Part shown: positions 44,980-52,800 of the stretch, in pieces | Numbering within the stretch: the stretch's first letter is position 1 | How the letters are laid out: every line of letters starts with the position of its first letter | Source: Campylobacter canadensis | GTDB lineage: Bacteria; Campylobacterota; Campylobacteria; Campylobacterales; Campylobacteraceae | Direction: 5' to 3' | Assembly: GCF_013177655.1 (NCBI RefSeq) | Contig: NZ_CP035946.1 | Coordinates: 1,550,001 to 1,614,000 of the forward strand | DNA: 64,000 nucleotides | Notes under the pieces: generated by a model | Database searches by the model: none | What the model was told of the DNA's origin: nothing | The model's input: only the letters and a program-made list of their open reading frames with translations | Position numbers and translations under genes: made by a program

Positions 44980-45057
44980 TGGGGTGAGTGATGGGAATCG
45001 AACCCACGACCCTCAGGACCACAATCTGATGCTCTAACCGACTGAGCTACACTCACC
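44980..45057 (-). tRNA. tRNA-His (GTG)
   Basis: The minus strand folds into a full cloverleaf with a seven-pair acceptor stem plus the extra G at -1 opposite C73, the histidine identity element. The anticodon is GTG, the T loop reads TTCGATT, and CCA is encoded. It is 22 bp downstream of tRNA-Pro on the same strand. Confidence 0.97.
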
Positions 45058-45079
45058 ATAAATAAAAGTGGATAAAAAG

Positions 45080-45157
45080 TGGTCGGGGTGAAAGGATTCG
45101 AACCTTCGGCCCCTTGGTCCCAAACCAAGTGCGCTAACCAGACTGCGCTACACCCCG
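45080..45157 (-). tRNA. tRNA-Pro (TGG)
   Basis: The cloverleaf on the minus strand has acceptor CGGGGTG pairing with CACCCCG, anticodon TGG, T loop TTCGAAT and encoded CCA. The upstream recombinase reading frame continues through its first 24 bases. A likely promoter -10 (TATGAT on the minus strand at 45174-45179) lies inside the recombinase frame. Confidence 0.97.
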
Positions 45158-46258
45158 TAAATTAAAAGATGTAATCATACTATATTTTTTGTTAAATGTA
45201 AAGAAAAATTTATATTTTTCAAAATATTTTTTTATTTTTGTAATTTTTTCTTTATCTTCAAGGTAGCTAATATAATATTTTAGCGTTGTAGTCATCTTAC
45301 TATGACCTAATTGATTAGAAATAAATTCCAAAGAATTTGGTACTTTATTTAGCAATAAAGTAGCATAAATATGCCTAGTTTGATAAAAAGTAAAATTATA
45401 AATTCCTATACTTTTTAAAATATCATTCCATTTTTTACTAAAACAATCAGCCCTTGTGTAAGCCTTTTTATATTTTGTTACAAAAATCCACTCATCATGG
45501 AATTTATATTCTTTGTAAAGCGTCTTTAAAGCATTTAATGCTGGTTTTAATAAATGAATAATTCTAGTTTTTTTATTTTTTGTACTGCTTAATTTGCCAA
45601 AAACTATATTCTTGCTTATTATTAAAGTTTCACTTTTAAAACAAACATCGCTCCATTTTAATGCTATTAATTCACCATTTCTAATACCTGTAAAAATGCA
45701 AAGTGCAAAAACTTGTTTGTAAAAATGCGGACTTTTATCCAAAATTTCTTTTACTTTATTTAACGGCAAAGCTTTTATTTTACTTAATTCAATATTGTTA
45801 TTTTTTAATTTAGGTAAAGAAAAATTATCAACAAGTTCATCATCAATTACCGACAGTATCAAGGCTTTAAAATGCGTATAAATATGTGTTTTTGTTTTAA
45901 AACATATATTTTTATTGTTTAAATAAATTAAAAAATTTTTACAAAAATCTCTATTTATATGCCTTATTTTGCAATTTTTAATAAAAGGAAAAATATGATT
46001 TTTAAATAAATTTGCTACTATTTTTTTAGTTGAATCTTTATTTAACATATTTTGACTTAATAAAAAATCTTGAGCGTAAATAAACAAAGAAGAATTGTTA
46101 TCTTTTTTATCTTTAAATAAAATTTTTTCTTCTAACTTCTTTAAATTTTGTTTTACATATAATAAATTTTCCTCGTTTGCAACAAGCCCTGTAGATTTGC
46201 GAATTCGTCTATTATTAGATGAAAAACTAAGATAAATAATGTTGTTACGAATATACAT
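45134..46258 (-). CDS. Phage/island-type tyrosine recombinase (integrase)
   Basis: The 374-residue recombinase has an arm-type N-terminus (residues 1-50), a core-binding SAM-like region (about 55-145) and the catalytic domain. Arg193 is in FTGIRNGELIALKW, a lysine lies in the 222-230 hairpin, Arg295 and His296 are in FYQTRHIYAT, His319 is in QLGHS and the nucleophile is Tyr328. The first His of HxxRH is Tyr292, as in the YQTRH integrases of phages and islands; it is not XerH. The final eight codons, including the TAG stop, lie inside tRNA-Pro. AAAGGAG precedes the start. No excisionase or cargo gene is present between the tRNA pairs, so it looks like an orphan or relic. Confidence 0.88.
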   Translation of the reverse strand: MYIRNNIIYLSFSSNNRRIRKSTGLVANEENLLYVKQNLKKLEEKILFKDKKDNNSSLFIYAQDFLLSQNMLNKDSTKKIVANLFKNHIFPFIKNCKIRHINRDFCKNFLIYLNNKNICFKTKTHIYTHFKALILSVIDDELVDNFSLPKLKNNNIELSKIKALPLNKVKEILDKSPHFYKQVFALCIFTGIRNGELIALKWSDVCFKSETLIISKNIVFGKLSSTKNKKTRIIHLLKPALNALKTLYKEYKFHDEWIFVTKYKKAYTRADCFSKKWNDILKSIGIYNFTFYQTRHIYATLLLNKVPNSLEFISNQLGHSKMTTTLKYYISYLEDKEKITKIKKYFEKYKFFFTFNKKYSMITSFNLRGVAQSG

Positions 46259-46351
46259 TCTAACTCCTTTTGTAAAAAAAATTAAAAATATTTATTTTTT
46301 TAAGCTAAAAATAATATTTCTAAGCTAGAATACAATTTTTTATTTCAATTT

Positions 46352-46442
46352 GGACAGATGGGTGAGCGGCTGAAACCACACCCCTGCTAAGGGTGCAGAT
46401 CTTAATCGGGTCTCGAGGGTTCAAATCCCTCTCTGTCCGCCA
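46352..46442 (+). tRNA. tRNA-Ser (GCT)
   Basis: This 91-base class II tRNA has acceptor GGACAGA pairing with TCTGTCC, anticodon GCT in the loop CTGCTAA, a long variable arm and encoded CCA. A TAGAAT -10-like box lies about 20 bp upstream. It is divergent from the recombinase gene. Confidence 0.97.
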
Positions 46443-46463
46443 CTTCTTTTTTTATTATTTTCA

Positions 46464-46540
46464 GCGCTCGTAGCTCAGCTGGATAGAGCATTTGATTGCG
46501 GTTCAAAAGGTCAGGGATTCGAATTCCTTCGGGCGCACCA
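46464..46540 (+). tRNA. tRNA-Arg with anticodon GCG
   Basis: A full cloverleaf: acceptor GCGCTCG with CGGGCGC (one T-G pair), D stem GCTC/GAGC, anticodon stem TTTGA/TCAAA, loop TTGCGGT, T loop TTCGAAT and encoded CCA. The anticodon reads GCG instead of the usual bacterial ACG that is edited to ICG. It should decode CGC and CGU. It lies 21 bp after tRNA-Ser. Confidence 0.93.
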
Positions 46541-46591
46541 TTTACCACAAATATTTTTATAGTAAATAACTAAAATAACAATTAAAAATGT

Positions 46592-46625
46592 TTTTGTGCT
46601 AGGCTTTTTATAGCACAAAATTTTT
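46592..46625 (+). terminator. Terminator after tRNA-Ser/tRNA-Arg
   Basis: A 10-bp perfect stem (46592-46601 with 46611-46620, TTTTGTGCTA / TAGCACAAAA) with a nine-base loop is followed by T5, 50 bp after tRNA-Arg. Confidence 0.75.
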
Positions 46626-47109
46626 AAACTTATTACACTAACTAAAACACAAAAACCAATTAAATCATATTAGTTAAAGATACATAGCACCTTAGCAAAT
46701 ATCAACTTTAACTTATCTTTAATAGCACAACATTTTTCAAAGTATCTAAACATAAATCTTTACCCTACTTACCAATACAATTTAGCTATAATTAAATACT
46801 TTTTTATACTTTTCATCTAATTTAATTTTACAAAACTGTAATTAAAAAATTTCATTAAAATATTTTTAAAGGCTAAAATGTTTATATACGATGGAGTAGA
46901 TAATCTATGCAATAAAGTAGAATATTTTTAAATTTTTATAATATATTTTAATCCAATATTAATTAATAGTATTTTGTATTAGCTTGTAGTGAGCAAATAA
47001 AATGATAAAATGAGCATTGAGCTAATTTTATATGCTTTTATCGTGAAATATTTAGCTTTAGAAAAAATAAAATAACACTTAGTATAAACAGGTAAAAACA
47101 AGTAATAAA
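46626..47109. other. AT-rich DNA without recognised genes
   Basis: About 480 bp with no credible gene. A 17-codon frame at 46878-46931 has only a weak ribosome site and no recognisable product. ATTAGCT and AGCTAAT at about 46977 and 47026 could pair over a long loop. It leads directly into the repeat array. Confidence 0.6.
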
Positions 47110-47146
47110 CTTAAAAATACATTAAATTAAGTTTTATTTAAGCCGC

Positions 47147-47326
47147 CAACATCTGCAACATCTGCAACATCTGCAACATCTGCAACATCTGCAACATCTG
47201 CAACATCTCCAACATCTCCAACATCTCCAACATCTCCAACATCTCCAACATCTCCAACATCTCCAACATCTCCAACATCTCCAACATCTGCAACATCTCC
47301 AACATCTCCAACATCTCCAACATCTG
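47147..47326. repeat. 9-bp minisatellite A, 20 units
   Basis: Twenty uninterrupted copies of CAACATCTS. The last base is G in units 1-6, C in 7-15, G in 16, C in 17-19 and G in 20. It is followed at once by the degenerate unit CAACTCTTC. All units are exactly 9 bp, so all reading frames stay open, but no gene is supported. Confidence 0.95.
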
Positions 47327-47395
47327 CAACTCTTCACAACCCTTCTAACTATTCACAATGCTATAAAATCAATCTCACACTTTTTTTACTATAAA
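47327..47395. repeat. Degenerate 9-bp run and conserved block before core two
   Basis: Positions 47328-47390 are nearly identical to 48888-48950, offset exactly 1560 bp. The block begins with degenerate 9-mers (CAACTCTTC, CAACCCTTC, TAACTATTC) and continues into the AATGCTATAAAATCAATCTC stretch. Shorter relatives occur before cores four and five. Confidence 0.85.
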
Positions 47396-47434
47396 CTTAA
47401 AAATATATTAAATTCAGTTTTATTTAAGCTGCAG

Positions 47435-47775
47435 CCTTCCAAACCTTCCAAACCTTCCAAACCTTCCAAACCTTCCAAACCTTCCAAACCTTCCAAACCT
47501 TCCAACCTTCCAAACCTTCCAAACCTTCCAAACCTTCCAAACCTTCCAAACCTTCCAAACCTTCCAAACCTTCCAAACCTTCCAAACCTTCCAAACCTTC
47601 CAAACCCTTCCAAACCTTCCAAACCTTCCAAACCTTCCAAACCTTCCAAACCTTCCAAACCTTCCAAACCCTTCCAAACCTTCCAAACCTTCCAAACCTT
47701 CCAAACCTTCCAAACCTTCCAAACCCTTCCAAACCTTCCAAACCTTCCAAACCTTCCAAACCTTCCAAACCCTTC
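47435..47775. repeat. 9-bp minisatellite B, 37 units
   Basis: Thirty-seven copies of CCTTCCAAA plus a partial unit. One 8-bp unit (47498-47505) and extra C at 47605, 47669, 47724 and 47770 split it into sub-blocks of 8, 11, 7, 6 and 5 units. The plus strand contains no G at all within the array. The length changes shift the frame repeatedly, which argues against coding. Confidence 0.95.
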
Positions 47776-47878
47776 GTAATACTGCTAATTTAATCTTGTA
47801 CTTTTTACTATAAGCTTAAGAATACATTAAATTAAGTTTTATTTAAGTTTGTAGTTAGGGTTGTTGATTGTTTTTTTT

Positions 47879-47886
47879 GGGGGGGG
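47879..47886. repeat. G8 tract in tandem copy one
   Basis: Eight consecutive G following T8, at the equivalent position to the G10 tract in copy two. It is outside any recognised gene. Confidence 0.9.
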
Positions 47887-48236
47887 ATAATAAAACCAAA
47901 AGAATTTAGAAAAACAAAAATGGTTAAAAAAGGGAGAGATTAATTGTTTTTTTGGTGGTAGTACACTTGTGATGAGATGTTGTAAAAGATATTTTAGGGT
48001 ATTGATAAGCAGAGTAAAGATTGATTATTGGTAGTAGCGGGGCTAAAAATTGTAGTTAAGGGGTTAGTAAATGTTGGCAAGCCCCATTTCAACCAGTCTA
48101 AACCTTCTAACCATTTTAAATCTTCTCAACTCTTCACAATGCTATAATTTTATCTCACGCTTTAGCTATTAGCTTAAAAATACATTAAATTCAGTTTCAT
48201 TTAAGTTTGTAGTTAGGGTTGTTGATTGTTTTTTTT

Positions 48237-48246
48237 GGGGGGGGGG
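48237..48246. repeat. G10 tract in tandem copy two
   Basis: Ten consecutive G in the second copy of the duplication. The two-base difference from copy one shows that the tract changes length independently. Confidence 0.9.
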
Positions 48247-48552
48247 TAATAAAACCAAAAGAATTTAGAAAAACAAAAATGGTTAAAAAAGGGAGGGATT
48301 AATTATTTTTTTGGTGGTAGTACACTTGTGATGAGATGTTGTAAAAGATATTTTAGGGTATTGATAAGCAGAGTAAAGATTGATTATTGGTAGTAGCGGG
48401 GCTAAAAATTGTAGTTAAGGGGTTACAGCCCCATTTCAACCAGTCTAAACCTTCTAACCATTTTAAACCTTCTCAACTCTTCATAATGCCATAATTTTAT
48501 CTCACGCTTTAGCTATTAGCTTAAAAATACATTAAATTAAGTTTTATTTAAG

Positions 48553-49774
48553 CTTATAGTTGGAATTATCAATTATTTTTGGTAGTAGTGCTTAAGAATA
48601 AATTAAATATTGGTGCTTAATCGTTGATATTAGGCTTAAGGCTTGGTGGTTGTTTAGTTGTAGAAGGATTAAAAGTTGGCGTGATTGAATAATGATTTGT
48701 TGTGTTGTGGAGGGGGTGGTAAAAACTGATGATATGCAGTGTAAGAATGGTTGGCTTGTTGTGTTAAAGGGAGCATCAGTAAGTGGAGTAAGAATTGATT
48801 GTTGATGTGGTAGAGGGGCTAAAAATTGGTAGGGTTAAATGATGATTTGTACTTAAAAAATATAGTGGATAAAGTTGAGTGTTCTCCAACTCTTCACAAC
48901 CCTTCTAACTATTCACAATGCTATAAAATCAATCTCACACCTTTTTTACTATTGGCTTAAAGATATATAAATTAAGTTTTATTTAAGCTTATAGTTGGGG
49001 TTTAAGATAGATGCTGGGTAGTTGTTTTTTTGGTGGTGGTGGGGGTAAAGTTTAAGTGGTTGGATAGTTGTGCGGAGATAAAAACTGATGATGATATGCA
49101 GTGTAAGAACAATTGGCTTGTGTGTTAGATAGAGTATTGCTAAGTGGAGTAAAAATTGATAATTGATAGGGTTGAATGATAATTTGTAATTAAAAAAAGC
49201 AGGAGGGGGTAAACTAATGATAAGGTATCATAAAAGAATGTTTATGATATTGCTAAGCAAAGTAAAGATTGATGTTTAGTAGAGCTAAACGATGATTTAA
49301 TGCGTTAGAATATAAAATCATTTAAATTCTATGTTTATTGAGAATAAATTAAAAATTAGTGCTTAAATGGTGTAAAAATTAAAAAACTAATTTTAATATG
49401 AGTCTGCTTATTAAGATGAATTAAAAATTAGTGCTTAGCTAATGCAATAATGATTGCTTTGGCGTGTTAGATGAAATATTTGTAAGCAAAGTAAATATTT
49501 ATGCTTAGTTGCCTTAAAAGACATTTTATAATGTTAGACTGGACAAGCTAAACTAGCTATTTATAAGCTTCGTAATCTTTGCAATCTTTCAAAGTTTGAA
49601 AAAATAAGATTATATAATAAACATAAACTATGCCTATAAATTCGCTAAGTATTTAACAAGATGAAAGAAAGTTTTTAATCTACTGCAAACAAGTTATTTT
49701 ATTACTAACGCTGCATTTTAAAAAAAATTTTACTTTAAAACTATTGAGCATTTAAAAAATACAAGCTTAAATAT
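48553..49774. other. Diverged repeat remnants and AT-rich DNA before carB
   Basis: No credible gene. The stretch to about 49290 is a diverged continuation of the array: motifs like AAGTGGAGTAAGAATTGAT and GGGGCTAAAAATTG recur in altered form near 48782, 48825, 49142 and 49256. A 24-base element (GAATAAATTAAAAATTAGTG then CTTA, with variants) occurs at 48596-48619, 49342-49365 and 49415-49437. A plus-strand TATAAT at 49613-49618 is the only promoter-like box I note. Confidence 0.6.
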
Positions 49775-49803
49775 AATTAGCACTAAAATATTTAGTGCTA
49801 ATT
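49775..49803 (-). terminator. Terminator after carB
   Basis: A 13-bp perfect stem (49775-49787 with 49791-49803, arms AATTAGCACTAAA / TTTAGTGCTAATT) with a three-base loop lies 7 bp past the carB stop. Confidence 0.85.
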
Positions 49804-49810
49804 TATTATT

Positions 49811-52800
49811 TTACAAAGCATTAATACATAAAGTCATTTCTTTTATAGCGTCTAAATAAGCTTTTGCACTATCTAAAGAACTAATGCAAGCAACTCCGCA
49901 TTCACTAGCACTTCTTCTAATTAAAAAGCCGTCGTTTTGAGAATTTGCATTACTTGGGGTATTTATTACCAAATTGATTTTACCCTTGCTTAAATGCTCT
50001 AAAATTTCATTATTTTGTGCAAGTTTATTTAGTTTTGTACATTCAAGATTGTTAATTTTAAAATACTTGCTTGTATTATTTGTGGCATAGATTTTAAAGC
50101 CTAAAAGTGCGAATTCTTTAGCTAAATATAAAGCATTTGCCTTATTTTTATCATCAATACTAAATAAAACTCCTCCATTTTCTTTTATGCTCATTCCACT
50201 TGCGATTAGGGCTTTTAAAAGTGCTTTGTTAGGATTTTTATCACTACTTGCTACTTCTCCTGTTGATTTCATCTCAGGTCCTAAAACAGGGTCAACCAAG
50301 CTTAATTTAGCAAAAGAAAACACAGGTGCTTTTACGCTAAAATGTTTTTTATTATGAAAATAAGTTGTTTTATTTAATTTTTCTCCTAACATACAATTAA
50401 TAGCCATTTTTACTAAATCCATATCATTTGCCTTGCATAAAAATGGCAATGACCTTGAAGCTCTTAAATTAACTTCTAAAACATAAAGTTCATTTTCATA
50501 AAGTACAAATTGGATATTCATAAGACCTTTAACATTTAAGCCTTTGCTTAATGCCTTTGTATAATCAATCGCTTTTAAAATTATATTTTTTTCAATGCTA
50601 AGTGGCGGGGTGATTGCAATTGAATCTCCACTATGAACCCCTGCTCTTTCAATAAGCTCTAAAATACCTGGTATAAATACATTTTCTCCATCACAAATCG
50701 CATCAAGCTCTAGCTCTTTTCCTTCTAGGTACTTATCAATCAATAAAGGTTTTTGAGTGCTTATTTCATCTATGGTTTTAATATAATCATTCATAGCATT
50801 CTCATCAACAATAACTCTCATAAACGCACCGCCTAAAACAAAAGAAGGTCTTACAATTACAGGATATTTAATTTCATTTGCTTTAGTTAAAATCTCATCT
50901 TTTTTACTTGCATAAGTTGCCTTTGCTTGTTTTATGTTTAATTTATCTAATAATTTTGAAAAATCTTGCCTATTTTCTGCGATATTAATACTCTCTAAGC
51001 TAGTGCCTATTATATTTACATTATGTTTTGCAAGCTCGCAAGCAAGATTAATTGCACTTTGCCCACCAAAACTAACAATAACACCAAGTGGCTTTTCAAG
51101 CTCAATTATAGGTAAAACATCACTTAAGGTTAATGGTTCAAAATATAATTTATTTGCAATGCTAAAATCTGTTGATAAAGTTTCAGGATTATTATTAATA
51201 ATAATTGCTTCATAACCTAAGCTTCTTAAAGCCATAATAGCCTTAACGCTAGAATAATCAAACTCAATCCCCTGCCCAATTTTAATAGGACCACTTCCTA
51301 AAACTATAATTTTTTTCTTACTCGTGCTTATAATGTTTTCATCCTTGCATTCATCGCTAAAGCTTGAAAAATAGCAAGGAATTTTATTATTATGATTTAA
51401 AAGTGGTACTTTATATTTTGCTTTTAGCTTAAAATCTTTTTTACAAATATTTTTTATAAATTCATTGCTAAAACCAATTTGTTTTGCTTTTTTAAACAAT
51501 TTTTCATCAACTGTATTATTTTCTAATTCTTTTTTTACTTGAGAAATCTTTTTAAATTCATTTAAAAAATACTTATCAATCTTTGATAACTCATAAACTT
51601 TTTCAACGCTCATACCAAGTTCAAACGCCCTTAAAATATAATAAATTCTTTCATCGCTCGGATTTTTTATATTTTCTTCAATTTTATTTTCATCAATACT
51701 AACTTTATAATCAATACTTCTTAAAGCCTTTAAAAAGCTTTCGCTAAAACTAATTCCAAGCCCCATTGCCTCGCCTGTTGATTTCATTTGAGTTGTTAAG
51801 TTCCTGTTAGCATTTTTAAACTTATCAAAAGCAAATCTTGGCATTTTAGTAACAATATAATCAATATTATTATTAAATTCTAAGCAGTTTTGCCCGTTTT
51901 CTAAATAAATTTTATCTAATGGTTTTTTTAATGCAATTTGTGCTGCAACTTGTGCTATTGCAAAACTTGTAGCCTTTGAAGCAAGCGCACTTGACCTTGA
52001 TAATCTTGGATTTATTTCTATAATAAAATATTCTTTTGTTTGTTTATTATAAGCTATTTGAACATTGCAAGAGCCTTTAATATCAGCACTTTTAGCTATT
52101 TTTAAAGCCACATTACACATTCTATCAATTTCACTTTTTTCTATACTTAAAATCGGTGCAACCACCATAGAATCACCCGTATGAACTCCTACTGGGTCAA
52201 TATTTTCCATACCGCAAACTACGATAGCATTATCAAATTCATCTCTTAAAACTTCAAATTCTAATTCGCTAAGCCCTAAAATACTTTGCTCAATTAAGCA
52301 TTGTTTTATTGGAGAATAAATTAAACCTTCTTTAGTAATTTTAATAAGCTCTTCTTCACTTCTTGCTATTCCACCGCCAAGTCCACCCATTGTATAAGCT
52401 GGACGCACAACAACAGGATAAGAATTTTGTTTTGCAAAATTAAGTGCATCTTTAATGCTTGTTGCTATTGTTGAGCTTGGAATTGGCTCATTTATCTTAT
52501 TCATCAATTCTTTAAAGCTTTTTCTACTTTCAGCTAATTTTATACTTTTTAAGCTTGTACCAATTACTTTTACTTTAAATTCTTTTAAAAGAGCGCTAAC
52601 TTCAATAGCAATATTTAAAGCATTTTGCCCACCACAAGCAGCAAATAAATAATCAGGTTTGCATTTTCTAATAACCTTGCTTACAAATTCAGCATTTAGT
52701 GGTTCTAAATAAATCTCATCAGCTATATTTTTATCAGTCATAATTGTTGCTGGGTTTGAGTTAATTAAAATAACCTTTAAACCTTCTTTTTTAAAAGCTA

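Follow-up and report, generated by a model that had tools for sequence, protein, structure and literature searches.

The array of six 33-bp imperfect palindromes (cores) located in the window, the 64,000-nucleotide stretch of the Campylobacter canadensis chromosome analyzed here, is probably an orphan inter-pilin spacer and a member of a species-specific repeat family, the home of which is a 57-kb locus of flagellin and pilin variation. This odd non-coding array was a pointer to a silent-cassette flagellin locus, and it opens two questions to testing: does gene conversion vary the flagella of this lineage in the way it varies gonococcal pili, and do short AT-rich repeats in spacers act as anchors for recombination? 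The literature searched, which under-represents subscription journals, contained no description of silent flagellin cassettes in Campylobacter.

The six cores claimed in a preliminary description (286-436 bp intervals, DNA without genes) were all present (Table 1). Five, on the forward strand, had at most 2 mismatches to the consensus CTTAAAAATACATTAAATTAAGTTTTATTTAAG, and the sixth contained an indel; the start-to-start distances were 286, 419, 358, 347, and 436 bp, and the number of matches expected by chance was 0 (100 shuffles of the window). The claimed match of 12/16 arm positions around the central A was reproduced, and the differing contents of the intervals were all recovered: minisatellites A and B, two G-rich units (47871-48066 and 48230-48425) with 98% identity over 196 bp, and a diverged unit in the remaining interval. 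The CCTTCCAAA module had a homologue in the arrays at 319 and 335 kb (88% over 310 bp), while the two copies of the tandemly duplicated core-to-core module were 88% identical over 512 bp, with the inner 196 bp at 98%. No credible gene was found within the array (the only ORFs of at least 50 aa were 9-bp repeats read in several frames), nor was any flagellin match, and region 46900-49800 of the window gave zero matches among phage and plasmid records.

Table 1. Positions of the core array and related features. Plain numbers are window positions; the other entries are given by genome, contig, or locus identifier.
Feature	Position	Strand	Remarks
Core 1	47110..47142	+	0 mismatches to CTTAAAAATACATTAAATTAAGTTTTATTTAAG
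Core 2	47396..47428	+	2 mismatches to CTTAAAAATACATTAAATTAAGTTTTATTTAAG
Core 3	47815..47847	+	1 mismatch to CTTAAAAATACATTAAATTAAGTTTTATTTAAG
Core 4	48173..48205	+	2 mismatches to CTTAAAAATACATTAAATTAAGTTTTATTTAAG
Core 5	48520..48552	+	0 mismatches to CTTAAAAATACATTAAATTAAGTTTTATTTAAG
Core 6	48956..48987	+	2 substitutions and a 1-base deletion
9-bp minisatellite CCAACATCT	47146..47330	+	20.6 copies
9-bp minisatellite CCTTCCAAA	47435..47771	+	37 copies
Core-to-core module, first copy of in-place tandem duplication	47724..48233	+	blastn
Core-to-core module, second copy of tandem duplication	48084..48580	+	blastn
Array left end	47062..47146	+	blastn; ~80% identical to pilin-proximal leader elsewhere in the genome
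Array right end	48943..49098	+	blastn; 85% identical to spacer downstream of pilins, 352-357 kb tandem units
~97-bp hairpin elements	G000:C1:314364, 324312, 330845, 339436, 362082, 371262
Same-genus flagellin regions	G002:C1:1777524-1853100; G003:C1:1893353-1913721
Pilin-linked tyrosine recombinase family	L012:258-1220; L154:12149-13066; L171, L174, L069, L073	- (L012, L154)

The assignment as an orphan spacer was based on the two ends of the array: since it starts like a pilin leader (the matched leader includes the pilin-proximal core variant) and ends like the spacer downstream of pilins, with no pilin present, it corresponds to DNA between pilin genes. Elsewhere in the genome, the matching stretch is the spacer between two successive pilins, both of which are absent here. 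No pilin adjoined the left end (best E = 8.2 by tblastn), and no pilin remnant was found in window positions 45001-51500, flanks included. The array had been put forward as a self-contained, unrecognized element; this is not supported, as it is best read as spacer DNA of the flagellin/pilin variation locus.

Outside the window, the same genome contained 68 further core copies, nearly all in spacer DNA of the flagellin/pilin locus; the resulting count of 74, which derives from an ungapped scan of the regions retrieved from this genome, comprised 60 at 316-369 kb, 8 at 1166.5-1169.3 kb, and 6 in the window. The core pattern had no occurrence in IMG/VR or in 84,980 species genomes (a set from which the source genome itself may be absent), and in the flagellin/pilin regions of two genomes of the same genus (G002 and G003), no sequence came closer to the core than 8 mismatches. 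The search beyond the window, proposed in the preliminary description, was therefore productive within the genome, but returned no copy outside the assembly, and what had been named there as grounds against a cassette array applies in part: the cores, confined to one assembly, occur alongside a repetitive gene family. On these comparisons, the cores are peculiar to this genome, unlike the silent-copy plan of flagellin.

The parent locus (314-371 kb of the same chromosome; G000:C1:314428-371275; L009-L012) contained one intact flagellin gene, six 5'-truncated silent copies, and 12 of the 13 mosaic pilin genes. A sigma-28-like ccgatat was located upstream of the full-length flagellin (347226-349499), and all six silent copies aligned only from residue 126 to 758, with the first ~115 codons missing. 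Each silent copy was preceded by a ~97-bp hairpin element (-27.8 kcal/mol, z -4.7) that occurred nowhere else in the genome, and all seven flagellins were followed, in the same direction, by at least one core and then a pilin gene, with 1 to 7 cores and interchangeable fillers in between. The diagnostic sites of the intact flagellin fell into two blocks: 91 (nt 417-876) agreed with one silent-copy type and 260 (nt 979-1563) with the other, a single exception aside. Since a two-block mosaic is the pattern left by segmental gene conversion, the view that this process shaped the intact gene, a clean mosaic of two silent types, is well supported. In the mechanism that we propose, the silent copies would feed variants into the single expression site by such conversion; that variation at the parent locus is ongoing is what we infer from one single-contig assembly.

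In Neisseria, one expressed pilin gene (pilE) is accompanied by silent copies (pilS) lacking the promoter and 5' coding sequence, and the expressed gene is pieced together from segments present in these copies (PMC12108084). Both features were found in the parent locus: a single intact gene with a promoter plus several 5'-truncated silent copies, and an expressed flagellin composed of silent-copy segments. On the other hand, the target is a flagellin, every cassette unit includes a pilin gene, and the silent copies follow the 97-bp hairpin element and precede core arrays; the window array has no coding cassettes. Read from sequence alone, the parent locus works like the pilE/pilS silent-cassette system with flagellin as its target. 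The plan of one expression site plus 5'-less silent copies is not limited to this genome, because G002 contained one full flagellin and four copies without the first ~10 codons, and G003 one full gene and two such copies; these truncated copies shared 100% identity with the intact gene for ~480 nt, beyond which they diverged. Each of them begins after a short C-rich sequence. Another interspersed repeat, GAATTTGAAATAGGAA, which is unrelated to the core, occurred 26 times in 120 kb of G002 (G002:C1:1745001-1865000; L148-L153), often in inverted pairs.

The sap locus of Campylobacter fetus carries a surface-protein gene family with inverted copies, in which rearrangements occur among homologues. 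It and the parent locus are both Campylobacter surface-protein families with inverted copies; however, the proteins differ, and silent 5'-less flagellins, 13 pilins, and a species-specific 33-bp spacer repeat are found here. This S-layer locus is cited in PMC11852207.

The dyad of the core runs 8 bp further outward (ACTATAA.../...TTATAGT), and the better copies paired at 17-19 of 24 positions (12-16 in the others); among shuffled 49-mers, at least 19 paired positions were reached with P = 5e-5. Although the consensus folds (z about -4), an RNA stem was not supported: no compensatory changes were found among the core copies, and several arm positions were always mismatched. Four arm positions almost never paired, and the right part was conserved, while the left was more variable. 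Core identity was ~0.89 even where mean flank identity was just 0.5-0.6, and something therefore conserves the cores. This bears on the view of the array as an inert satellite, a spacer family without a function of its own that spreads by duplication together with flagellin and pilin genes. The presence of the core in one genome only, the dominance of 9- and 10-bp slippage repeats in the fillers, and the orphan, gene-free state of the window array are all consistent with it; nevertheless, it appears unlikely, because such identity amid unrelated flanks needs selection or core-directed gene conversion. Since it is better conserved than its surroundings, the core probably has an additional cis function, as a protein-binding dyad or a preferred junction.

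The pilin family, assigned by the N-terminal prepilin motif, consisted of 13 genes: 12 in the parent locus, one at 1167 kb, and none in the window. Most shared a common leader and the first ~55 codons (two shared just ~36 codons, and one had a different leader), and an alignment revealed blockwise differences past the common start, the C-terminal parts being mosaic. A core variant was located in the leader of nearly every pilin. This position raises the question of a cis-regulatory repeat, in which pilins would be preceded by cores serving as binding sites or promoters, and the number of cores would tune or phase-vary pilin expression. The dyad symmetry, the conservation above that of the flanks, and the TTTAAG-TTATAGT ends, which look like AT-rich -10 regions, point in the same direction; however, we consider this role rather improbable. 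A simple promoter scan gave no excess of promoter-like sites, the dyad varied without compensation as described above, some arrays were located between convergent pilins and downstream of both (319.4-320.6 kb), and in the window there is no pilin on which the array could act. No excess was seen for a terminator role, and neither a promoter nor a terminator role of the cores is supported.

The claim of a modular array was upheld, since the content between cores differed from array to array, while the cores stayed and fillers were re-paired at them. Around the 74 cores, we distinguished 25 types of left filler and 29 types of right filler; eight of the left types had two or more right-hand partners (five at most), and eight of the right types had two or more left-hand partners. 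All exact tandem arrays of at least 5 copies in the core clusters had a unit of 9 or 10 bp, and the 9-bp units (few were 10 bp) comprised many unrelated sequences. The TACGAAGAT module, shared by three arrays, was present at 12.1, 8.1, and 11.1 copies, and this unequal repeat number is what slippage gives. Of 61 distinct block ends, compiled without bias, 38% were located 33-80 bp from a core start (18% expected), and half of the block boundaries fell within -15 to +80 of a core, against 0.41 expected. Boundaries were ~2-fold enriched just right of the cores and spread over tens of bases, with no single base preferred. Because the excess was confined to the 33-80 bp stretch and half of the ends were elsewhere, the cores are not the sole junctions; the core as the only recombination junction was rejected as too strong a claim. 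The spread of block ends is more in keeping with exchange between short stretches of shared sequence than with the action of a site-specific enzyme, and the contents of the window array look as if produced by homology-driven exchange of modules at or near cores together with slippage of 9-bp repeats. According to this scheme, the cores would be the only sequence common to every spacer module, RecA-type homologous recombination between them would duplicate, delete, and swap modules, and 9-bp repeats would lengthen and shorten by slippage; the window array would have been copied or moved from such a locus, losing its pilins and keeping its cores.

The genome encodes five tyrosine recombinases, two of which are near core clusters. 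The lone enzyme claimed to lie less than 1 kb from the window array was confirmed at 45134-46258 (-); two tRNA genes lie in the 852 bp that separate it from the array. Its well-scoring relatives in the same genus were never located beside pilins, and it scored 21 bits against the integron-integrase model TIGR02249 (cut-off: 265). The ORF ends inside a tRNA-Pro gene (45080-45157), as in tRNA-attached elements. The second recombinase, at 360 kb, had a relative with 53% identity within the pilin cluster of a same-genus genome that lacks cores, and each of its closest relatives lay between two pilins of opposed orientation, immediately upstream of one of them. This layout was found in G003, G035, G030, JAFUFY010000069.1, and JAAYPR010000049.1, and coordinates suggest the same in G025. 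In most opposed pilin pairs, homology started at a short dyad (e.g. TTACATA-AGSG-TATGTAA) that is distinct from the core and located about 46 bp before the pilin start codon; therefore, if any recombinase works on these pilins, its likely site is there and not at the core. This pilin-linked family, present in several Campylobacteraceae, looks like an undescribed pilin inversion switch.

These data weigh on a site-specific array, in which a tyrosine recombinase would use the core as its crossover site and the modules would be cassettes inserted and removed there. Junctions recurring at or near cores are compatible with this idea, as are the outer ends of two large inverted duplications of 6.3 and 3.1 kb, located exactly at the right edge of a pilin-proximal core, the proximity of two of the five recombinases to core clusters, and an arm asymmetry resembling that of Rci sfx sites, which have a 12-bp variable left arm, a 7-bp core, and a 12-bp conserved right arm (PMC11852207). 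However, block ends were scattered across tens of bases to the right of the core, all cores of any one array had the same orientation, the 53% relative of the 360-kb enzyme sits in a cluster without any core, homology between opposed pilins in the relatives starts at a different dyad, and the window integrase adjoins tRNA genes and has no pilin-linked relative; the site-specific array is thus very unlikely. The geometry of a recombinase core, suggested previously, was not supported, because there was no single-base boundary and a C broke the central TTAA pairing in 11 of 36 distinct cores. The speculative link to the window recombinase was likewise not supported: none of its well-scoring same-genus relatives was beside pilins, and no fixed crossover point was found.

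Known systems with repeats of this kind were also compared. The R64 shufflon (PMC11852207) shares variable pilin C-termini, a tyrosine recombinase beside pilins, and a ~31-33 bp repeat with one conserved and one variable arm; however, the cores of one array are direct repeats with non-coding fillers instead of invertible coding segments, and block ends extend over tens of bases instead of a fixed crossover inside the repeat. Chromosomal integrons resemble the array in repeated imperfect palindromes, unlike inserts, and a nearby tyrosine recombinase, but differ in that the window inserts have no ORFs, the nearby enzyme scores far below the threshold for integron integrases, and the cores are AT-rich dyads in a protein-family locus. 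A CRISPR differs in having near-constant short spacers in place of the 286-436 bp spacing, and the Rfam scan of the window gave only tRNAs. Integron, shufflon, and CRISPR readings were ruled out on the features tested.

We tentatively raise a broader possibility, a two-antigen system in which the core would be a dedicated junction, and units of hairpin head, silent flagellin, core spacer, and pilin would be copied, inverted, and exchanged as blocks ending at the head, the core edge, or the dyad ~47 bp before the pilin start. Flagellin and pilin would then be diversified together, and the recombinase that accompanies inverted pilins in several Campylobacteraceae might work alongside RecA. The other ends of the inverted duplications were located just past the flagellin hairpin head and at the short dyad before the pilin start.
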